A DNA stretch of 64,000 nucleotides from Candidatus Galacturonatibacter soehngenii (GTDB lineage Bacteria > Bacillota > Clostridia > Lachnospirales > Lachnospiraceae). The stretch is taken from assembly GCF_008830185.1 (NCBI RefSeq), contig NZ_WAGX01000004.1, forward strand, positions 868,001-932,000, read 5' to 3'. The first letter of the stretch is position 1, and each line of letters begins with the position of its first letter. Position numbers and translations under genes: made by a program. Positions 572 through 10,262 of the stretch are shown here, piece after piece. Below the pieces are notes generated by a model, which did no database searches, was not told the origin of the DNA, and saw nothing but the letters and a program-made list of their open reading frames with translations.

Positions 572-2350
572 CTACACAATATTTGCAAACTGTGCCATAT
601 AAAGTTCATAATAAAAGCCTTTTTTTGCCATAAGTTTTGTTGCATTGCCTTCTTCCACAATGATCCCATCATCAATAACAAATATTCGGTCAGCATTTTG
701 AATGGTTGACAATCGATGTGCAATGACAAAAGAAGTTCTGTTTTTTAATAAAGCTTCGATTCCTTCTTGCACTAATATTTCAGTATGGGTATCTATACTT
801 GAAGTTGCTTCATCTAGTATAAGAATCTTTGGGTTTGAAACCATGGTTCTTGCAAAAGCCAATAATTGTTTTTGCCCCACAGATAATCCTGCCCCACGTT
901 CTTTTAGTACCGTGTCATACCCTTTTTCCATTTCCATTATAAATTCATGTGCATTTACTGCTTTAGCCGCTTGAATCACCTCTTCATCGGTTGCATCTAA
1001 TTTACCATATTTGATATTTTCTTTTATCGTTCCAGAGAATAAGAAATTATCCTGCGTCATAATCCCCATTTGTTGTCTTAAGCTCTCTATCGTAATCTTC
1101 TTTACGTCATAACCATCTACGGTAATTCTTCCTTTTTGGATATCGTAAAATCGACTAATCAAATTCACAATCGTTGATTTTCCAGCTCCTGTTGGACCTA
1201 CCAAAGCAATTGTTTCACCTGGCTTTACTTTAAAGCTAACATCATTTAGCACTTTACTATTTGCATCGTATTCAAAGGAAACATTTTGAAATTCTACCTC
1301 TCCTTTGATTTCTGGAAGCGTTGCAACATCTTTTTCATCTGTGATATCTGCTTTGGTATCCATGATTTCAAAGATACGCTCTGCCCCTGCAACATTCGTA
1401 ATCAATTGGTTATAAAAATTACTAAGATTTAAAACAGGGCGCCAAAACATTGAGATATATGTTCCAAATGCGATTAGTGTTCCTACTGGTACTTTATCTG
1501 CACCTATCATTTTAACACCAACATAATAAAGCATTAATGTACCAATTCCCCAACAAAAATCAACAATAGGTCCAAATGCATCTGCATATTTTACTGCTGC
1601 CATAAAGGAATTCTTATGCTCCGTAAGGAGCTCTTCAAACGTCTCTTGTGTCTCCTCTTCTGCTCCAAAGCTTTGAATAATATACATACCCGAAATATCT
1701 TCATGCACAAATGCATTTACATTCGAGCCTTTCTTACGAAATATTTGCCATTTCACATGTGCCTTTCTTTGGATGATGAATACACCAATTATCATGAACG
1801 GAAGGCTACTTAATGCGGCAATTGCCAATCTCCAATTCTTTATAAACATAATGAGAACTACGGATGATATCGTAATGAAATCTGGAATCAAAGTTGTTAC
1901 ACTATTTGACAATACTTCCTTTAACGAGTTTACATCTCCAATAATTCTTGCCAATATCTTACCTGTTGGTCTGCTATCAAAAAACTGAAAGCTTAAGGTC
2001 TGAATGTGTGTGTATAGTTCTTCTCGTATGGTTAATAATACCTTATTTGACACTTCTGCCATAATATACATTCTAGTTTTAATCAATATTACTAAAATAA
2101 TATTAATGCCCGCCGCAAATGCACCTAATCGTAAAAGACCAATTCTATCCTTTTGCTTTATATAGACATCAATGGCTCTTTCTATAATAAGAGGATTGAC
2201 TAACGTAATTGTTACACAACAAAACATAATCAGTAGTACAAATATAATCTTCTTTTTATAAGCCAGTAAATATCGAAACAGCCTGATTAATGTGACTTTT
2301 CTGGAATGCGACTCTAAAAGCTCATCTTCTTTTACTGAATTAATTGCCAC
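572..2350 (-). CDS. ABC exporter half-transporter, subunit with canonical catalytic Glu (BmrD/YheH-like)
   Basis: 592-residue half exporter: six-helix transmembrane domain (about 25-310) followed by an ATPase domain. Walker A reads GPTGAGKST, Walker B ILILDEATSS with the catalytic Glu near residue 514, and the H-loop IAHRLS is intact. The signature motif is LSVGQ (from about residue 489) instead of LSGGQ. This is the expected complement of the upstream partner, which lacks the catalytic Glu, so together they form one degenerate and one active ATP site as in heterodimeric multidrug exporters (BmrCD, TM287/288). The start is GTG at 2350, placed 5 bases after AAGGAGG. It lies 12 bp after the partner gene and is cotranscribed with it. 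The substrate is not predictable. Confidence 0.93.
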   Translation of the reverse strand: MAINSVKEDELLESHSRKVTLIRLFRYLLAYKKKIIFVLLIMFCCVTITLVNPLIIERAIDVYIKQKDRIGLLRLGAFAAGINIILVILIKTRMYIMAEVSNKVLLTIREELYTHIQTLSFQFFDSRPTGKILARIIGDVNSLKEVLSNSVTTLIPDFITISSVVLIMFIKNWRLAIAALSSLPFMIIGVFIIQRKAHVKWQIFRKKGSNVNAFVHEDISGMYIIQSFGAEEETQETFEELLTEHKNSFMAAVKYADAFGPIVDFCWGIGTLMLYYVGVKMIGADKVPVGTLIAFGTYISMFWRPVLNLSNFYNQLITNVAGAERIFEIMDTKADITDEKDVATLPEIKGEVEFQNVSFEYDANSKVLNDVSFKVKPGETIALVGPTGAGKSTIVNLISRFYDIQKGRITVDGYDVKKITIESLRQQMGIMTQDNFLFSGTIKENIKYGKLDATDEEVIQAAKAVNAHEFIMEMEKGYDTVLKERGAGLSVGQKQLLAFARTMVSNPKILILDEATSSIDTHTEILVQEGIEALLKNRTSFVIAHRLSTIQNADRIFVIDDGIIVEEGNATKLMAKKGFYYELYMAQFANIV

Positions 2351-2362
2351 TTTTTCCTCCTT

Positions 2363-4084
2363 CTATGCACGCATTACTTCTTTGTATTGTGCATGAAACG
2401 TCTTATAATATAATCCTTTCATTGCCAGTAACTCATCATGTTTACCACGTTCTGCTATTTTTCCTTTTTCTAAAACAATGATTTCATCTGCATTACGTAC
2501 CGCTGAAATTCGATGGGCAATGATTATTTTTGTTACATTGTCTAATTCATTTAAGTTATTTTGTATCTTATATTCTGTCTCCATATCAAGTGCAGATGTA
2601 GAATCGTCTAATACAAGGATTGGCATTCTCTTTGCAAGTGCCCTTGCGATACTGATTCTTTGTTTTTGCCCTCCTGATAAACCAACCCCACGTTCTCCGA
2701 TTAATGTTTCATACTGATTTTCCATTTTTTCAATAAAGTTCGTGGCATGAGATTCTCTAAGTGCCTCTCTTACTTCATCATTTCGAACTCTGTTTTTCTT
2801 ACCAAGCTTTACATTTGAATTAATCGTATCGGAAAACAAGAATACATCCTGCATAACAAGTGTAATATTCTTTCTTAATTCCTTTAGACTTAATTTTCGA
2901 ATATCTACACCATCTAATAAGATCTTTCCTTCTGATACATCATAAAAACGCTGTAACAAATTGATAATAGAGGTTTTTCCTGTACCTGTTGCACCCATAA
3001 TACCAATCGTTTTTCCTGCCTCTACCTCAAACGAAATGTCCTTTAATATGTACTTTTTATCAATTTGAAGGGATACCTGTTCAAATTTTACATTTCCTTT
3101 AACCTCTCCTAATGTGATAGGATTTTCTTCTTCTACAATTTGAGGCTTTTGATTATAAATGGTCTTAATCTTTTTATTTGATGCGATTGCGCTGGCAAGG
3201 TCATTAAATAACCAGCCAAGCATTTCCATCGGCCATACAATATTATTACAGTATTCTGCCGCCGCTCCTAGTGTACCAAGCGTAATCTCACCATTAATGA
3301 CAAGAACTCCTCCATAAACTATCGCAACTATTGGTAAAAGCTTTGTTATCATTTGAAACATAGGTTGATACTTTACCAATACCTTTGATTGTCTCATATT
3401 AAGATCATAGTATCTTTTGTTATGCGATAAAAATTTTGTAATCTCAAATTTCTCTCTTGCAAATGCTTTGACCGTTCTCACTCCTGCTAGATTTTCTTGT
3501 GCTACGGTATTTAACACAGCATTTTCTTCACTAATTTCTTCGTATACTCCACCCAATTTATTTTCCATCAAAATAGCCAGAAATCCTACAACTGGCATTG
3601 CAATGACTGGAATCATAAATAATTTAAAATTCAAATGAAACATACAAAATAATATAATGGTCGTATGTATGACAACTTCTATAATTAGCATACTGATATA
3701 TCCAAGAGCTGACCAGATTTTATCCACGTCATCCTTAACTCTTGCCATTATTTCACCTGTGTTATTTTCATTAAAAAATCCAATGGATAATCCTTGAATA
3801 TGGTGAAACAATCGCTTTCTCATATCAGAAGCGATACTTGCGCTTATTTTATCAAATATATATTCTTTTATATATCCAAACACACATCGCCCCGCACCGA
3901 TGAGAAAAATCATTAGTAGTAGCTGGGTTAATATTCCTATTTGTCCGTTTCCAATCACATCATCAATGATTTTCTTTGTCAACTGCGGCGAAAGCATATC
4001 TAATCCAACCTGAAATACCATGCAAATAATTGCAATGAAATAAAAATACCAATGCTCTAGTATATAGCTTGAAATTTTTTTCAT
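2363..4084 (-). CDS. ABC exporter half-transporter, subunit with degenerate ATP site (BmrC/YheI-like)
   Basis: 573-residue transmembrane-ATPase fusion. Walker A is GATGTGKTS, the signature LSGGQ is canonical, but Walker B reads ILVLDDSTSALD, with Asp (about residue 494) where the catalytic Glu should be. In heterodimeric exporters this Asp pairs with a deviant signature in the partner, and the partner here has exactly that (LSVGQ). An in-frame GTG at 4120 would lie at the foot of the attenuator hairpin without a ribosome site; ATG at 4084 follows AAGGGG and begins MKKISSYIL, so it is chosen. Expression is probably gated by the upstream leader peptide and terminator. Confidence 0.93.
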   Translation of the reverse strand: MKKISSYILEHWYFYFIAIICMVFQVGLDMLSPQLTKKIIDDVIGNGQIGILTQLLLMIFLIGAGRCVFGYIKEYIFDKISASIASDMRKRLFHHIQGLSIGFFNENNTGEIMARVKDDVDKIWSALGYISMLIIEVVIHTTIILFCMFHLNFKLFMIPVIAMPVVGFLAILMENKLGGVYEEISEENAVLNTVAQENLAGVRTVKAFAREKFEITKFLSHNKRYYDLNMRQSKVLVKYQPMFQMITKLLPIVAIVYGGVLVINGEITLGTLGAAAEYCNNIVWPMEMLGWLFNDLASAIASNKKIKTIYNQKPQIVEEENPITLGEVKGNVKFEQVSLQIDKKYILKDISFEVEAGKTIGIMGATGTGKTSIINLLQRFYDVSEGKILLDGVDIRKLSLKELRKNITLVMQDVFLFSDTINSNVKLGKKNRVRNDEVREALRESHATNFIEKMENQYETLIGERGVGLSGGQKQRISIARALAKRMPILVLDDSTSALDMETEYKIQNNLNELDNVTKIIIAHRISAVRNADEIIVLEKGKIAERGKHDELLAMKGLYYKTFHAQYKEVMRA

Positions 4085-4120
4085 TTTTTCCCCTTTCCAA
4101 TCTTTTCCTCTCCAAAGCAC

Positions 4121-4150
4121 AAAAAAGCCATAGCAAGATGCTACGGCCTT
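4121..4150 (-). terminator. Intrinsic terminator in the exporter leader (attenuator)
   Basis: On the minus strand a 9-bp stem GCCGTAGCA/TGCTATGGC (one G-U pair) with a 3-base loop is followed by six T. It sits between the leader peptide and the first exporter gene, so it would stop transcription before the structural genes unless read-through is induced. An AT-rich hairpin (about 4155-4188, arms ACATTAA.../...TTAATGT, T-rich loop) lies just upstream and contains the leader stop codon. Confidence 0.8.
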
Positions 4151-4180
4151 AACATTAATTTAAATAAAAAAAACATAAAT

Positions 4181-4264
4181 TTAATGTGATGCAATAGAGG
4201 TAATCTTACATTCATAATTCTTTATTAAGTTGATATTTCTTAAAACAATTCCAATTATAGACAT
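4181..4264 (-). CDS. 27-residue leader peptide of the ABC exporter operon
   Basis: A short ORF too small for standard calling. AGAGAGGT precedes ATG at 4264 by six bases; the peptide starts MSIIGIVLRN, has a basic middle (NLIKNYECK) and ends SIASH at TAA 4181-4183. It lies between a consensus promoter and an intrinsic terminator that precedes the two exporter genes. Known drug-efflux operons such as bmrB-bmrCD use a translated leader in which antibiotic-stalled ribosomes prevent termination; the same role is inferred here. The peptide has no resemblance I can recognise to a known leader. Confidence 0.7.
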   Translation of the reverse strand: MSIIGIVLRNINLIKNYECKITSIASH

Positions 4265-4307
4265 ATTTTTTACCTCTCTTTCTTTATATTTTTATTTCAC
4301 TTTTGTT

Positions 4308-4337
4308 ATTATATCCTTTGGACAAACACTTTGTCAA
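4308..4337 (-). promoter_or_regulatory. Promoter of the ABC exporter operon
   Basis: Perfect -35 TTGACA (4332-4337) and -10 TATAAT (4308-4313), 18-bp spacer. The predicted start of transcription is about 36 bases before the leader-peptide ATG. Confidence 0.85.
4321..4335. promoter_or_regulatory. Palindromic operator overlapping the exporter -35 box
   Basis: GACAAA-CAC-TTTGTC, a perfect 6-3-6 dyad, overlaps the -35 hexamer and the spacer of the exporter promoter. The position is that of a repressor site; the cognate regulator is not identifiable in the window. Confidence 0.5.
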
Positions 4338-4483: not shown

Positions 4484-5344
4484 ATGGAACATATGCAACA
4501 TAACAAAGTCATAACACAAATCAAAGAATCTGGGCATTTACCAAAAATACCAAAAGCTTTTGGCGAAATATTAGACATGCTATTAGATCCATATGAATAT
4601 GATTTAGACGAATGCATTGATAAATTCATAAAATATCCCCAGCTTGAAAAAATTATGATACATTCTTTGGATTACAATTCTAATTTAAATCGCAAATTTT
4701 TAACTATCAGAGATGCCATTACATATCTTGGTGCTCGCAATGCAAAGATAGTAGCAATTTCTTATATCACTAATCTATTAGTTCCTATAGAAAAAGGTAG
4801 AGCAAAAGTATTCAATAATAAAAAATATTGGAAACATTGTCTTGGGACTTCGATTGCTGCATACAAAATTGCAGAAAAATCAAATTTGTCGGATAAAGAT
4901 AAAATGTTTATTTACGGTCTGGTTCACGATATTGGTGTTACTGTTTTAGATATATGCCTCCCTGATGAAATGGATCAGATTCATCAGTTACAAAAAAAAG
5001 GAGTTCATCAAATAGCAGCTGAAAAACTTGTATTACAAGGAATTACACATGCAGAGATCGGCTCATGGCTTTGCTTTGAATGGAATTTACCTGATGAAAT
5101 GCAAACCATCATAGCCAATCACCACACTCCTTTGCTAGCCACACGACATAAAACAGATGTAATGATTATACATCTTGCAGATAGCATTAGTACCACTTAT
5201 TATGAATCCTTACTTGGATGTGAATCTACTTTCATTTACTCAAAAAAAATCATGGAGTCACTGGGCATTGATGAAGATTTTATGAAAGAAATCATACATA
5301 CTCTTCCACAAGAAATTGAACGTCTTTACAAAATTGTGGTGTAA
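4484..5344 (+). CDS. HDOD-domain signalling protein
   Basis: 286 residues forming a single HDOD domain. Conserved features are the N-terminal 'LPKIPKAFGEIL' motif, the YLGARNAK segment, an HD pair (H148-D149 in GLVHDIG) and the late NHH motif near residue 208. HDOD proteins are HD-superfamily relatives linked to signalling and motility; whether this one hydrolyses anything is unknown. AAGGGAGGT lies 8 bases before the ATG, and a TATAAT box (4443-4448) without a good -35 lies upstream. It is a single gene between divergent and convergent neighbours, so no pathway follows from context. Confidence 0.85.
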   Translation: MEHMQHNKVITQIKESGHLPKIPKAFGEILDMLLDPYEYDLDECIDKFIKYPQLEKIMIHSLDYNSNLNRKFLTIRDAITYLGARNAKIVAISYITNLLVPIEKGRAKVFNNKKYWKHCLGTSIAAYKIAEKSNLSDKDKMFIYGLVHDIGVTVLDICLPDEMDQIHQLQKKGVHQIAAEKLVLQGITHAEIGSWLCFEWNLPDEMQTIIANHHTPLLATRHKTDVMIIHLADSISTTYYESLLGCESTFIYSKKIMESLGIDEDFMKEIIHTLPQEIERLYKIVV

Positions 5345-5409: not shown

Positions 5410-7740
5410 TCACAAATCATTGATGGTTGCAGTAATCGCCATATTGCGTATCCGTTTTGCCGGGGCATATACCGCAGCGACAGCACAAACAAAATCAAAC
5501 ACAACAACAATGACAAGCAACACTATCGGTAAGCTCCATGTAGTTCCAAAGTATCGCGTTAAAAGCTTGATATGCAAAAATCTACTCAGTGCAATTCCCA
5601 CTCCACAACCAACCACAAGGCCTGAAATAGCGTAAGTAAAGGCTTCTGCGGCTATCATCTGGAGAAGCTGTCTACCGTCCATACCAACAGCCCGCATAGC
5701 ACCATACTGTTTTATTCGTGCGCTCACGCTCATCGAAATGCTGTTGATCATATTAAACATCGTAATCATAGCTATAATTGCCAAAAAACTATATATAACA
5801 AATTGTGTAGCCAAATAGGTACTTGCATCTTCTTGATTTCTTTTGCGCGCATCACTATAAATCACATTGCTTTCAACAAGACTGTTAATTTGCTGTATCG
5901 TTTCATCGGTCGCATCTTTGCCTAGTTGTATGCCAAGCAAGCTATAATTTTGTTCTCCCGTCAGCCGCTTTAAAGTTTCCATGGAGCAAATGATACTGTA
6001 TTCACTGGGATATAAACCATTAGATGCAACGCACGTAATTTCAACCTCTTGCCCTGCAATCCAAATGATATCTCCAACTTTTAGTGGATTGTCTTTATTG
6101 ATGATTGTCATAACTTTATCGCTATCTCCATAGATTTCTAACAAATCCCCTTGAACCATACTATCTTTTGTATTTTCAAGCAGATAGTCACTATAAGCCA
6201 CCAGATTAACATGGTCAATTTCTTGTCGTGAAGAAGTTACTGGAACATTTTGAATATAGGAGCTTCCAAAAACATAATCCACACCTGAAATTGAACCAAT
6301 CGTATCACTCAACCTTTGACTTAGTACCCGTTCATTCGCATAACCGTTGAGTGTAATATCTGGCTGCCATGACCGTAAAGATGGCACCAATTCGCGTGCA
6401 AAATCAAGCCCTACCGAGAAACAAAGAAACAAAATGATACTAAGGGAGAAGCTGGCTGTCATCAGAAACCAGTTTTTCTTTGACGATGTTGCATGATGGA
6501 CACCTAACGTCTTTTCAATCTTACCAAAACTTAACTTTGAAGCATGCCGTATCGATGATACGGTCTGCGTATTACCTGAAACTGCTGCCATCGGAGAAAT
6601 CTTAGCTGCCCGTTTGGCAGGAGCCTGTGCTGCCAACAATACAGTTGCAACCCCAACTGCTGCACCACTAACAAGTCCGACGGGGCTAAGAGCAAATACA
6701 GGGGTGTTAGTAAATTCACCACCAATCCCGTAATGTAACAGCGCACAAACACTCCAACTGATTGCTGTCCCCAAAATCAAGCCAAATGGCACCGCCGTTT
6801 TACACCAATTCAATGCTTCCAACCTTACATACTGAATGATTTGCTGGCGACTTGCACCAATACAGCGCATCATACCAAAGAATTTTGTCCGTTGGGCTAC
6901 GTTGCTGTTCATACTGCCAGATATCATCAGCACACCAGCAAGCAGTACCAGAACAAACAAAATAGCCGCCATTCCATAAACATTTTTCATCGATTCATTG
7001 CTACTTTGCCCCGAAATACCCATGATAGCAGTATTTTCCTTAATGCTTCCTTCCTTCAAATCATACTGCTGTTTGATTTGTGAAATTGCTTTGGAAGCCT
7101 TTGAAGCATTTTGAAACTGCACATAGCAGATTGGGCTACTAGAAATATCATTTTGCTCCATAAGTGTTGCAAAAGCTGTTTGTGTCATATACACAGCAAC
7201 CAAATATGTTTGATCTTTATAATACTCTTTGTCATCCGCTCCAAAGCCTGATACTGTAACATCAGTATCACCAGCAGGGGTTTTCAAAGTTACACGGTCA
7301 CCGATTTGTACATCCAAAGCAAGCTTAGCATTGAGACTAAGTAAGACCTCATTATCGCTTTTTGGAAAATCTCCTTCTTCAATAGCACTGGCAAGCCTGG
7401 TCATATATATATTGTCTGTACCATATAAAACGGCTTTTTTCTCTCCGATATAGTATGGTTGATCTGCATTTGAATTGAATGCCTCTGACCAGCCAATTGC
7501 CGTAACATCAGGACGCCCACTTATTTCTGTTGCAATGTCAAAAGAAATATTTTCCAGTTGAATGTGCCAGTTTCCATGATTGTTTTTCATATCTTCACTT
7601 TTCGTTCGAATCATCATGTCCGCCACGCTGAAAATCGTTGTCACAAGTAGTACCGAAATAATAATACACATAATTGTCATGCGATTTTGTCGTTTTCTCA
7701 CCTTTGCACAAATCGGAATAAGGCTAAGATAGCTTCTCAT
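5410..7740 (-). CDS. MacB/FtsX-type ABC transporter permease
   Basis: 776-residue permease with two FtsX repeats: an N-terminal membrane helix (about 20-42), an extracellular MacB-like domain, three helices (about 255-390, including the FFGMMRCIGAS cytoplasmic motif), then a second helix, extracellular domain and C-terminal FtsX unit (about 640-775, motif QYGAMRAVGM). The start is ATG 7740, 8 bases after GGAGG; a GTG nine bases upstream overlaps that ribosome site and is rejected. It overlaps the ATPase gene by 17 bp. With the adjoining kinase and regulator this resembles antimicrobial-peptide or cell-envelope stress transport modules; the substrate is unknown. Confidence 0.88.
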   Translation of the reverse strand: MRSYLSLIPICAKVRKRQNRMTIMCIIISVLLVTTIFSVADMMIRTKSEDMKNNHGNWHIQLENISFDIATEISGRPDVTAIGWSEAFNSNADQPYYIGEKKAVLYGTDNIYMTRLASAIEEGDFPKSDNEVLLSLNAKLALDVQIGDRVTLKTPAGDTDVTVSGFGADDKEYYKDQTYLVAVYMTQTAFATLMEQNDISSSPICYVQFQNASKASKAISQIKQQYDLKEGSIKENTAIMGISGQSSNESMKNVYGMAAILFVLVLLAGVLMISGSMNSNVAQRTKFFGMMRCIGASRQQIIQYVRLEALNWCKTAVPFGLILGTAISWSVCALLHYGIGGEFTNTPVFALSPVGLVSGAAVGVATVLLAAQAPAKRAAKISPMAAVSGNTQTVSSIRHASKLSFGKIEKTLGVHHATSSKKNWFLMTASFSLSIILFLCFSVGLDFARELVPSLRSWQPDITLNGYANERVLSQRLSDTIGSISGVDYVFGSSYIQNVPVTSSRQEIDHVNLVAYSDYLLENTKDSMVQGDLLEIYGDSDKVMTIINKDNPLKVGDIIWIAGQEVEITCVASNGLYPSEYSIICSMETLKRLTGEQNYSLLGIQLGKDATDETIQQINSLVESNVIYSDARKRNQEDASTYLATQFVIYSFLAIIAMITMFNMINSISMSVSARIKQYGAMRAVGMDGRQLLQMIAAEAFTYAISGLVVGCGVGIALSRFLHIKLLTRYFGTTWSLPIVLLVIVVVFDFVCAVAAVYAPAKRIRNMAITATINDL

Positions 7741-8419
7741 TCGCAACACCTCCCAAATCAGTTAGAACCCCGTCTGATACTAAAAATACCCGATCAGCGG
7801 TCTGCGCAATACTTCGGTTGTGGGTAATCATAATAATCGTCTGCTCGTATTTTTTAGATGCCTCTCTAAGTAATGCAATGACCTCGCTACTGTTTTGCGA
7901 ATCCAAATTACCAGTCGGCTCGTCAGCCAGAATCAGTGCTGGACGGGTGATTAGCGCACGTCCAATTGCCACTCTTTGCTGCTGGCCACCAGATAACTGG
8001 CTTGGCAAGTGATTACGGCGCTCTTTCAGATTTAGCACTGTGAGAAGTTCTTCCAGATACTTCTTGTCAGGTTTTTGATAATCAAGGAGCATCGGAAATA
8101 TAATATTTTGCTCTACGGTGAGTTCTGGTACAAGATTAAACGCCTGAAAAATAAAGCCTATGTTCCTTCGCCGAAAAACGGTGAGCTTTCGGTCATTCAT
8201 CGAAAAAATATCCTTGCCGTCAATCTTTACCTTGCCCGATGTAGGAATATCCAGCGCTCCAATCATGTTTAAGAGCGTACTTTTGCCGGAACCCGATTCT
8301 CCGACAATCGCCACATATTCGCCCTTTGGGACAGAAAAGCTGACATTTTTTAGTGCGTTTACAGCAGTTTCACCGCTGCCATATGTCTTACAAATGTTAT
8401 TAACCTCTAATAAGTTCAT
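7724..8419 (-). CDS. ABC transporter ATP-binding protein (LolD/MacB family)
   Basis: 231 residues. Walker A GESGSGKST, Q-loop FQAFNL, signature LSGGQQQR, Walker B LILADEPTGNLDS and the H-loop MITHNRS are all intact, typical of the MacB/LolD/FtsE-like ATPases that partner FtsX-type permeases. AGAGGT precedes the ATG by about 10 bases. The gene overlaps the permease start, implying translational coupling, and follows the sensor kinase after a 110-bp gap that contains a large inverted repeat. Confidence 0.95.
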   Translation of the reverse strand: MNLLEVNNICKTYGSGETAVNALKNVSFSVPKGEYVAIVGESGSGKSTLLNMIGALDIPTSGKVKIDGKDIFSMNDRKLTVFRRRNIGFIFQAFNLVPELTVEQNIIFPMLLDYQKPDKKYLEELLTVLNLKERRNHLPSQLSGGQQQRVAIGRALITRPALILADEPTGNLDSQNSSEVIALLREASKKYEQTIIMITHNRSIAQTADRVFLVSDGVLTDLGGVANEKLS

Positions 8420-8451
8420 AGTGCAAATACCTCTTTCTTAATGATTTTGCT

Positions 8452-8486
8452 ACACAGGCAGATTTCTTTGTCTATCCTGCCTGTGT
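8452..8486. repeat. 10-bp perfect inverted repeat between kinase and ABC genes
   Basis: ACACAGGCAG and CTGCCTGTGT separated by 15 bases, located 33 bp upstream of the ATPase ATG. There is no T-run after it on the minus strand, so it is not an ordinary terminator. It could be a response-regulator binding site for autonomous control of the transporter genes, or an mRNA processing hairpin. Confidence 0.55.
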
Positions 8487-8529
8487 TGAAAGAATAGCAC
8501 ATGAATATTACTGCAAGGCTACAATCAGC

Positions 8530-9567
8530 CTACAATTTTGTAGGAATTAAAAAATTCATTGTAAAGGTCGTTCCCTTACCTAATTCACTGTCAACCTCTA
8601 TGGTGCCACTATGCGCTTCAATAATGGCCTTTGCCATAGGAAGTCCCAACCCAATCCCTTGCTTATCCTTCGAAAAACGACTACGGTAAAATCGTTTGAA
8701 AATATGATGCAAGTCCTCTGGATGGATACCTTTGCCATTATCTTTTACCGTAATCTGAATGGCACTGGATAAGGCTTTCCATTCAATGCAAACCTTGTCG
8801 CCTTTTTCTGTATGATCCAGCGCATTTTTCACAATATTGTCAATGCCCTCGATTAGCCAATCACGGTCACATAAGAGTGAAATATTATCTGAGCCAGACA
8901 AAACGATTTCTTTTTGCTCCTGTCTTGCCCTATACGCAAAATGTAGTTCGATGTCTCGCATTATGTCCGCTATGTTCTCCATGCTCTTTTCAATGATAAT
9001 AGAACCAGCATCTAGTTTTGTGATTTTTAACAAGTTTTGTACCAACGTCTCAATGCGGTCAAGTTCCTGCTCTGACAATGTGACAAATTCTTTTACCACA
9101 GGCATTTCCTCTGCTTCGTCTTGCAGTAGTCCATTATAAATGTTTAGAGCTGCGAGCGGCGTTTTTAGTTGATGAGAAATATCAGAGATGGTATTTTTCA
9201 AAAAATCCTTTTCCCGCAATTCATTTGCCGCATGGGCATTTAAGATTGCAGCCAGTGAGTTTATGGAATGGAACAGTCTATACAACTCGCCCTCTTCATC
9301 ACATTCAATACGGGCATTCTCATTACCGTCAAGGTAGGCGTTGATTTGCGATACCGCATTCTCCATGATCTTGTTTTGCCGACAAAAAAACCAATAAGAG
9401 ACTCCCCATATTGCGATTGTTGTCAACAAAGAAAGCAACAACAGCCAAAAGAAAACCTTCTGATACAGCAGCCAGACAATGCCTTCTGTCAGTAAAAGGA
9501 AAGCCAATAAAATAACCGTTAGAACAAGGAAAAAGTGTTTTATGTCTTTGTTTGCAAATATTTTCAT
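8530..9567 (-). CDS. Sensor histidine kinase, intramembrane-sensing type
   Basis: 345 residues. Two membrane helices (about 12-33 and 37-60) with only a few residues between them leave almost no extracellular domain, the architecture of intramembrane-sensing kinases that take their signal from a partner ABC transporter. Then a HisKA domain with H132 in SDISHQLKTPL and an HATPase_c domain with N-box (IVKNALDHT), G1 (DNGKGI) and G2 (GIGLGLPM). It starts 8 bp after the response-regulator stop. The neighbouring FtsX-type transporter is the probable sensory partner or target. Confidence 0.93.
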   Translation of the reverse strand: MKIFANKDIKHFFLVLTVILLAFLLLTEGIVWLLYQKVFFWLLLLSLLTTIAIWGVSYWFFCRQNKIMENAVSQINAYLDGNENARIECDEEGELYRLFHSINSLAAILNAHAANELREKDFLKNTISDISHQLKTPLAALNIYNGLLQDEAEEMPVVKEFVTLSEQELDRIETLVQNLLKITKLDAGSIIIEKSMENIADIMRDIELHFAYRARQEQKEIVLSGSDNISLLCDRDWLIEGIDNIVKNALDHTEKGDKVCIEWKALSSAIQITVKDNGKGIHPEDLHHIFKRFYRSRFSKDKQGIGLGLPMAKAIIEAHSGTIEVDSELGKGTTFTMNFLIPTKL

Positions 9568-9575
9568 AAGCTACC

Positions 9576-10262
9576 TCAGTCCACGACATTCCATTTATAG
9601 CCCATGCCACGAACAGTCAAAAGCATTTGCGGTTCACTTGGATTGTCCTCAACCTTCATTCTCAATCTACGCATATACACTGTAAGCGTACTGCTATCAA
9701 TATAGTTGCCCTCACTATCCCACAGCTTATCTAATATTTGATTCTTAGAAAGTACCATATTCGGATTTTGCATGAACAGGCACAATAACTTATATTCTGC
9801 CGCGGTCAAATCCAACAGCTCCTCGTTCTTAAGCGCCTGTCCCTGTAACAAAAGCACCTTGATACCGTTTGATTGCAGTATCGTGTCTTCTGAGCCAAAG
9901 TCCTTTGCCCTGCGAAGCAAGGCGTTGATTCTTGATACAAGTACTCCCAGCTTAAACGGCTTTGTGATATAATCATCACCGCCTATATCTAGCCCCATAA
10001 TAATGTTCATTTCTTCATCGGAAGCTGTTAAAAAAATAATTGGCACCTTGGAAACCTGCCGCACCTTCTTGCAAAATTCAAAACCAGACCCATCAGGCAA
10101 CGCTACATCCAAAACCAGCAGATTATATTTACCATCAGCCCACAAAGCATCCGCCTCTTTGAGTGTTCTGGCAACGTCCAATTCAAATCCCTGCTTTTTG
10201 AAAGCAAAAGAAAGTCCGTTAATCAAACTTAAATCATCTTCGAGAAGTAATATGTTACTCAT
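9576..10262 (-). CDS. OmpR-family response regulator
   Basis: 228 residues: receiver domain (about 1-115) with acidic pocket D9/D10, phosphoacceptor D52 (LVLDVALPDG), T79 (FLTAS) and K101 (TKPF), then a winged-helix Trans_reg_C domain ending in RGMGYKWNV. First gene of the four-gene cluster RR - kinase - ATPase - permease. AAAGGA precedes the ATG, with a consensus promoter about 100 bp upstream. It probably controls the downstream transporter genes. Confidence 0.95.
   Translation of the reverse strand: MSNILLLEDDLSLINGLSFAFKKQGFELDVARTLKEADALWADGKYNLLVLDVALPDGSGFEFCKKVRQVSKVPIIFLTASDEEMNIIMGLDIGGDDYITKPFKLGVLVSRINALLRRAKDFGSEDTILQSNGIKVLLLQGQALKNEELLDLTAAEYKLLCLFMQNPNMVLSKNQILDKLWDSEGNYIDSSTLTVYMRRLRMKVEDNPSEPQMLLTVRGMGYKWNVVD

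Follow-up and report, generated by a model that had tools for sequence, protein, structure and literature searches.

The heterodimeric ABC exporter of the window, the 64,000-nucleotide stretch of Candidatus Galacturonatibacter soehngenii DNA analyzed here (contig NZ_WAGX01000004.1, positions 868,001 to 932,000), is preceded by a leader that is likely to be a cis-acting transcription attenuator reading a ribosome held at the start of its leader ORF. The leader begins with a sigma-A type TTGACA-18-TATAAT promoter (window positions 4308..4337, minus strand; TTGACA 4337-4332, TATAAT 4313-4308), which matches the consensus at 12 of 12 positions and was the sole such site among 17 promoter sites in the 5.5 kb scanned. 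It is followed by the leader ORF MSIIGIVLRNINLIKNYECKITSIASH, of 27 aa plus the stop codon (4181..4264, minus; ATG 4264 to TAA 4181), behind a strong ribosome-binding site, AAGAGAGGTAA, by a predicted AT-rich hairpin containing the leader stop codon TAA 4183-4181 (about 4152..4187, minus), and by an intrinsic terminator (4150-4124, minus) of 12 pairs, 5 of them G-C, with a T run at 4126-4121. A 5.5 kb scan contained seven terminator-like sites, versus 4.0 (sd 1.8) in shuffles. Every element of this arrangement, from the promoter to the exporter genes, had been described in the first-pass annotation of this DNA and was confirmed on the minus strand.

The exporter is encoded by two adjacent half-transporter genes, subunit A (573 aa; 2363..4084, minus) and subunit B (592 aa; 572..2350, minus), each with ABC_membrane and ABC_tran profile domains. 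According to the translations, the catalytic glutamate is replaced with aspartate in the degenerate site of subunit A (LDDSTS) and is kept in the canonical site of subunit B (LDEATS). Subunit A most likely starts at ATG 4084 rather than at the listed GTG 4120, because a likely Shine-Dalgarno, GGAAAGGGG, can be read from the sequence at 4090..4098 (minus), and relatives have a MKKIS start. The structurally solved sequence relatives of subunit A (PDB) include TM_0288 and YheI, the latter of which we take to be BmrC of B. subtilis. Judged by its domains and motifs, the pair is a heterodimeric exporter of the multidrug type. Two orthologue-bearing relatives fall within the genus of the window genome. 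An HDOD-domain protein (4484-5344, plus; Pfam HDOD E 1e-28) is encoded divergently from the exporter operon, and an FtsX-like permease, an ABC ATPase, a sensor kinase and a response regulator, named by eye from their translations, follow in a row at 5410-10262 (minus), in what looks like a peptide-antibiotic resistance module.

Four segments of the leader enter into the alternative pairings. Segment 1, the anti-antiterminator 5′ strand, is the leader Shine-Dalgarno AGAGGTAA (4270..4277, minus), and this stretch, AGAGGUAA (4277-4270), is the exact 8-bp complement of UUACCUCU (4203-4196), located within the leader ORF, four codons before the stop. Segment 2, TGTAAGATTACCTCTATTGCA (4190..4210, minus), has the core TTACCTCT (4203-4196), which pairs with segment 1, and its full stretch is able to pair with segment 3, GGCCGTAGCATCTTGCT (4132..4148, minus), which comprises the 5′ arm and loop of the terminator as defined by the terminator scan and duplex test. 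Segment 4 (4124..4135, minus; terminator scan) is the 3′ arm of the terminator and overlaps the end of segment 3. The single leader of the window folds no better than shuffles (z −1.22), and no Rfam family reached its gathering score in this leader; the best match, rli61, was rejected as an identity for the leader, being far below the threshold (22 bits versus 50).

We compiled 50 distinct orthologous exporters with at least 250 bases of upstream sequence (46 to 100% identity in one search, 47% or more in another). Left out were L002 and L003, which duplicate the genomes of L031 and L032, L045, for which the upstream sequence was too short, and L019 and L056, in which a contig start truncates the gene. 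The full layout of Shine-Dalgarno, leader ORF, near-end complement and terminator was found by eye before 34 of the 50, in a count that admits G-U pairs and shorter or once-mismatched stems. A 35th leader, L012, is partial, with all but the Shine-Dalgarno, its contig starting inside the leader, and the layout was absent before 15 of the 50. Two orthologues without the layout, L047 and L060, have another hairpin upstream (GAGGGAUGU...GGGUCCCUC, with a T run), which may represent a different kind of attenuator. A promoter-like site with at least 10 matches was present upstream in 31 of the 34 related leaders with sufficient upstream sequence, versus a fraction of 0.116 of mononucleotide shuffles. 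This recurrence, together with the promoter-like sites, places the layout beyond chance.

In 22 of the 50 regions upstream of orthologues, a GAGG-type Shine-Dalgarno can form a 1:2 stem with at least seven Watson-Crick pairs, its partner lying 40 to 120 nt past the start codon, versus 0.51 expected from dinucleotide shuffles. Of the 1910 starts of the GAGG type that occur in the window and loci L031-L110, 59 have the same stem, the leaders themselves included. A wide, locus-by-locus version of this test was underpowered, with 18 of 41 loci reaching p 0.05 and the window giving p 0.12. Around GAGG, pairing was above permutation at positions −1, +1, +3 and +4 (0, 0, 0 and 1 of 2000 permutations, respectively, reached the observed value) and not at −3, −2, +2 and +5 (2000 permutations), but the anchors were chosen by eye partly for complementarity, so these 1:2 covariation counts are biased, whereas the 2:3 test is unaffected.

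In most leaders, segment 2 is also complementary to segment 3. For 49 curated leaders (35 from orthologues, 13 from pattern scans and one RsgA-like locus), the 2:3 duplex with the leader's own partner had a mean energy of −12.30 kcal/mol, versus −8.64 (sd 0.36) for permuted partners, and none of 20,000 permutations gave a value as low. Ahead of this test, a nearer hairpin replaced the terminator given by the finder for six leaders, and L120 was left out, the finder having failed there although a hairpin was visible. The excess holds although kinship favours the permuted pairs, and the test is free of the selection affecting the 1:2 counts, because segments 2 were chosen without use of the terminator. 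The fit is nevertheless uneven: foreign segments 3 did better than the leader's own in 41 of 48 cases for L006, 45 of 48 for L115, 36 of 48 for L053 and 34 of 48 for L036. The window's own duplex is of no more than middling strength: 12 of the 48 foreign partners pair better, and 6% of shuffles are equally good. A joint change was seen in L114 and L122, in which the terminator CCUAGGUAAAG accompanies the leader UUUACCUCGGG.

Gene-blind scans of the 397 genomes of the family with the pattern AAAGNGAGGTAAN{38,68}TTACCTC yielded 14 sites in 13 genomes, versus one site for the reversed pattern. Nine of these sites lay directly before a subunit A orthologue (L111, L112, L113, L114, L118, L119, L120, L121 and L122), three of them already in the set (L119 is the window, L112 is L004 and L118 is L032). 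As for the other five, L116 and L117 precede an RsgA-like GTPase, L115 runs to the contig end, L123 precedes a short ORF of unknown kind and L124 lacks a leader ORF. The pattern AAGGAGGYAG...CTRCCTC was too noisy, with matches in 29 of the 397 genomes versus 39 genomes for the reversed control; the 30 loci listed for it included six exporter leaders (L130, by eye, L131, L139, L141, L142 and L148), two of which were known beforehand (L139 is L010 and L148 is L006). The pattern AAGGAG...CTCCTT was uninformative in the own genome (16 matches versus 12 in the control). Viral contigs gave 25 pattern matches, none of which resembled the element, and no frame within 110 nt after each of them matched the exporter. 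Three of the viral contigs (L176, L181 and L193) carry a 32-codon ORF with a Shine-Dalgarno complement; the hairpin after it, AGAGGUACUU...AAGUACCUCU, lacks a T run.

The leader ORFs of 48 leaders were 22 to 47 codons long. With respect to the start codon, the CCUC core of segment 2 kept one frame in 38 leaders, the remaining two frames accounting for 6 and 4, and its distance from the start codon was 46 to 118 nt (46 to 71 nt in 43 leaders). Because many leaders are related, these frame and distance counts are not independent. In 45 of the 48 leaders the stop codon ended 15 to 31 nt past segment 2, and in the other three 57 to 64 nt past it. No conservation of the leader peptide was found across the 48 leaders, and the residues encoded at segment 2 varied (KITS, ACL, SPAS), whereas the RNA was constant. 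Since the frame is mostly kept and the residues change over a constant RNA, these comparisons favour an ORF that is translated but the peptide of which is itself irrelevant. The first-pass annotation had proposed to look for conservation of the peptide frame in relatives: the frame was kept in 38 of the 48 leaders and the peptide was not.

We folded transcripts of growing length by a partition-function method, with bases masked as they would be by a ribosome, and recorded the maximum expected number of 2:3 pairs over the scanned 3′ ends; L012 was left out, its contig starting inside the leader, and 48 leaders remained. The expected number of 2:3 pairs was predicted to be 3.56 for free RNA, 11.06 with the start masked and 0.15 with segment 2 masked. 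The start mask raised the predicted 2:3 pairing in all 48 leaders, with at least four pairs in 48 leaders versus 13 for free RNA; in the window leader, the predicted values were 2.8, 12.7 and 0.0 pairs for free RNA, start mask and segment 2 mask, respectively. With one fixed 3′ end, predicted pairing increased in 47 of 48 leaders and reached at least four pairs in 36 of 48, versus 8 for free RNA. For the window leader, the fixed-end values were predicted to be 1.7 and 2.0, a small rise explained by the upper part of its long terminator being already able to form, and the increase to 12.7 requires the 3′-end scan. Once the terminator is complete, it is what minimum-energy folding predicts for the window leader, and masking the start does not change this, so the switch would have to be decided during transcription, with 2:3 forming before segment 4 emerges.

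Two elements of the first-pass mechanism did not survive this analysis. The AT-rich hairpin, suggested as a switching element, is predicted whether or not the antiterminator forms and lies at the apex of that structure when it does, and by eye the related leaders have another, weaker or no hairpin at its place. A ribosome paused near the leader end, suggested to change terminator folding, would cover segment 2, for which the predicted 2:3 value is 0.15, and would therefore favour termination rather than read-through. The underlying claim of a translated-leader attenuator ahead of a heterodimeric ABC exporter was upheld, since the element occurs in relatives, with a terminator and a mostly kept frame.

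Sequence comparison and folding established the four segments, their recurrence, the 2:3 covariation and the mostly conserved frame; from these we infer the kinetic order and the role of ribosomes as the signal. With no ribosome on the leader, or with one already past, segment 1 would pair with segment 2, leaving segment 3 free for segment 4, and transcription would stop ahead of the exporter genes. A ribosome translating the last leader codons would cover segment 2, with the same outcome, termination. A ribosome held within the first few codons, the start codon included, would mask segment 1; the emerging segment 3 would then pair with segment 2, no terminator would form, and the exporter would be transcribed. 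Because the start mask raises 2:3 pairing in the folding model, the segment 2 mask abolishes it, and the frame is kept while the peptide is not, the signal read by the device is probably a ribosome detained at the start of the leader, as would occur with initiation-blocking drugs. The predicted inducers are thus drugs holding ribosomes at initiation or in the first codons, and the natural inducers would be inhibitors stalling initiation or early elongation. By analogy, the present leader may respond to such drugs: tetracycline and retapamulin are described as holding ribosomes at start codons in E. coli (PMC12121999), and the account of cplR in C. difficile describes induction by retapamulin and lincomycin (PMC10201436). 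These data suggest a possible route by which Lachnospiraceae and their relatives turn on efflux under a translation block. If occupancy of the Shine-Dalgarno by a ribosome suffices, a switch of this kind would work without any particular peptide, and others like it could be identified from sequence data alone.

Peptide-specific arrest, of the kind represented by ErmCL and TnaC, would be a rival mechanism: the nascent leader peptide, acting together with a drug or ligand, would stall the ribosome close to the end of the leader and so open the terminator. The pause suggested in the first-pass annotation would be a version of it. The mostly kept frame (38 of 48 leaders) and the recurrence of CKITS or a near form in close relatives would be consistent with an arrest of this type, but the conserved residues fall on pairing bases, the RNA remains constant as the residues change from KITS to ACL or SPAS, and the model predicts that a ribosome over segment 2 abolishes 2:3 pairing; we therefore consider such an arrest unlikely here. 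It is quite unlikely that the leader is a constitutive partial terminator with a chance ORF, merely setting a basal level of expression. The 15 of 50 orthologues without the layout and the ordinary fold of the single leader are in keeping with such an arrangement, whereas the 2:3 covariation, the shared frame and the 1:2 excess argue against it.

Amino-acid attenuation, through slow decoding of particular leader codons under starvation, could draw on the richness of the leaders in Asn and Ile (11.9% and 10.8% of residues, respectively). However, an A+T-rich leader code could yield the same composition, no run of codons for one residue was seen by eye at a fixed or conserved position of the listed peptides, and the genes controlled encode an exporter and do not form a biosynthetic operon, making this explanation very unlikely. 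We found no point in favour of a ligand riboswitch or of a leader RNA bound by a protein; conservation falls on the Shine-Dalgarno and its complements, and the Rfam result given above provides no family for such an element, which we regard as extremely improbable. The attenuator reading a ribosome held at the leader start is the preferred interpretation.

Ribosome-controlled attenuation is a known class, and by analogy the exporter leader is a variant form of the vmlR/CplR logic. The vmlR leader of Bacillus subtilis, as described in the text of PMC9226507, resembles the mechanism proposed here in the blocking of an anti-antiterminator by a ribosome stalled on the leader ORF and in the replacement of an intrinsic terminator by an antiterminator; it also has a hairpin at the antiterminator apex, the proposed pause hairpin SL-2, at the same place as the AT-rich hairpin here. 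However, the vmlR uORF has three codons, and its Shine-Dalgarno is described as single-stranded before SL-1 (PMC9226507), whereas in the exporter leader the Shine-Dalgarno is the anti-antiterminator strand, segment 2 lies within the 27-codon ORF, and an ABC exporter rather than an ABC-F protein is encoded downstream. The cplR leader of Clostridioides difficile similarly places its uORF in a 5′ hairpin and has an antiterminator as well as a terminator, but differs, according to the text of PMC10201436, in its three-codon uORF, its ABC-F target, and a terminator that also hides the Shine-Dalgarno of the gene itself. From comparison and folding, the exporter leader has the three mutually exclusive structures of the vmlR/CplR type, the first overlapping the leader ORF; it has neither the uORF of about three codons with a conserved peptide (22 to 47 codons here, peptide unconserved) nor the ABC-F target, its target being an ABC exporter with a membrane domain. 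The use of the Shine-Dalgarno as a pairing strand may already have been described for cplR, the legend of Figure 3B in PMC10201436 naming an anti-SD element, and an earlier description is made likely by the presence of such a pairing in an ABC-F leader of the own genome (L196, see below).

The first-pass annotation likened the layout to that of bmrB-bmrCD of Bacillus subtilis. The comparison holds for the kind of target, both systems having a leader ORF and a terminator ahead of a heterodimeric multidrug ABC exporter, and translation of the bmrB leader is described as required for the induction of bmrCD by lincomycin (PMC4191407). It does not hold for the build of the leader: bmrB encodes 53 aa and its terminator lies inside the coding region (PMC4191407), whereas here the ORF stop ends at 4181 and the terminator (4150-4124) starts about 30 nt past the stop codon, and the logic is closer to that of vmlR and CplR. 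The toiL-topAI system of E. coli would share the signal proposed for the exporter leader, start-codon stalling by tetracycline or retapamulin, but it acts by freeing the topAI ribosome-binding site, with Rho-linked translational repression, and a switch based on an intrinsic terminator does not appear in the available text of PMC12121999. For the duf1127 uORF of Sinorhizobium meliloti, the ribosome-binding site likewise pairs with its own codons when ribosome-free, and stalling at initiation relieves attenuation, but the attenuation is presumably Rho-dependent and the pairing is described as preventing it, which is the opposite effect (PMC12218461). A 2010 survey of premature terminators reported 205 attenuator candidates before ABC transporter genes (PMC2965389), and attenuated exporters as such are therefore to be expected. 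Our literature search, which covered the main text of mostly open-access papers, found no account of this exporter leader or of an attenuated RsgA paralogue.

Similar leaders precede other genes. Starting from the RsgA-like GTPase genes of L116 (267-1265, minus) and L117 (1859-2863, plus), we assembled 12 loci by adding ten with at least 40% identity to the L117 protein, including L158 of the own genome (C8:311749-312666); weaker matches (33 to 37%) were assumed to be the canonical gene. A leader with a Shine-Dalgarno complement and a terminator was seen by eye at eight of the 12 loci (L116, L117, L157, L158, L159, L161, L168 and L169); no such leader was seen by eye at L155, L156, L160 or L162 in the few hundred bases read. 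The L158 leader is shorter and has a different sequence; in the folding model, its 2:3 pairing rises from 1.7 to 8.7 pairs with the start mask, little change is predicted for L157 (8.7 to 10.1), L159 (6.8 to 10.3), L168 (9.7 to 10.6) and L169 (16.2 to 17.0), and L161 fails the test (3.4 to 0.0), the masks for L158, L161, L168 and L169 being approximate, because the scripted start codons differ from the leaders read by eye. The RsgA relatives behind these leaders are apparently distinct from the canonical gene and are candidates for ribosome-protection, resistance or rescue factors.

One of the four ABC-F loci of the own genome that passed the family cut-off, L196 (C5:1110139-1111650), carries the leader MRK, of three codons, and a hairpin and T run precede the gene; by eye, the other three have no such leader. 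The MRK ORF lies behind AGAGAGAGGU, the complement of which is a stretch that begins with AACCUCUCU 103 nt past the start codon, and the predicted 2:3 value increases from 1.3 to 14.7 with the start mask. It is conceivable, albeit doubtful, that the exporter leader belongs to a general type of device in Clostridia, in which the leader-ORF Shine-Dalgarno serves as the sensor strand and the occupancy of the initiating ribosome is converted into transcription whatever the peptide, and that this device would unite a translation-stress regulon of the exporter, an ABC-F protein and the RsgA-like GTPase as an unrecognised ribosome-protection or rescue factor. One relative (locus L214, G019:C2:1-12500) has both an RsgA-like gene and the exporter pair preceded by leaders of this kind; the two are on the same strand, separated by about 6.5 kb, and a frame between them was named by eye as MATE-like.
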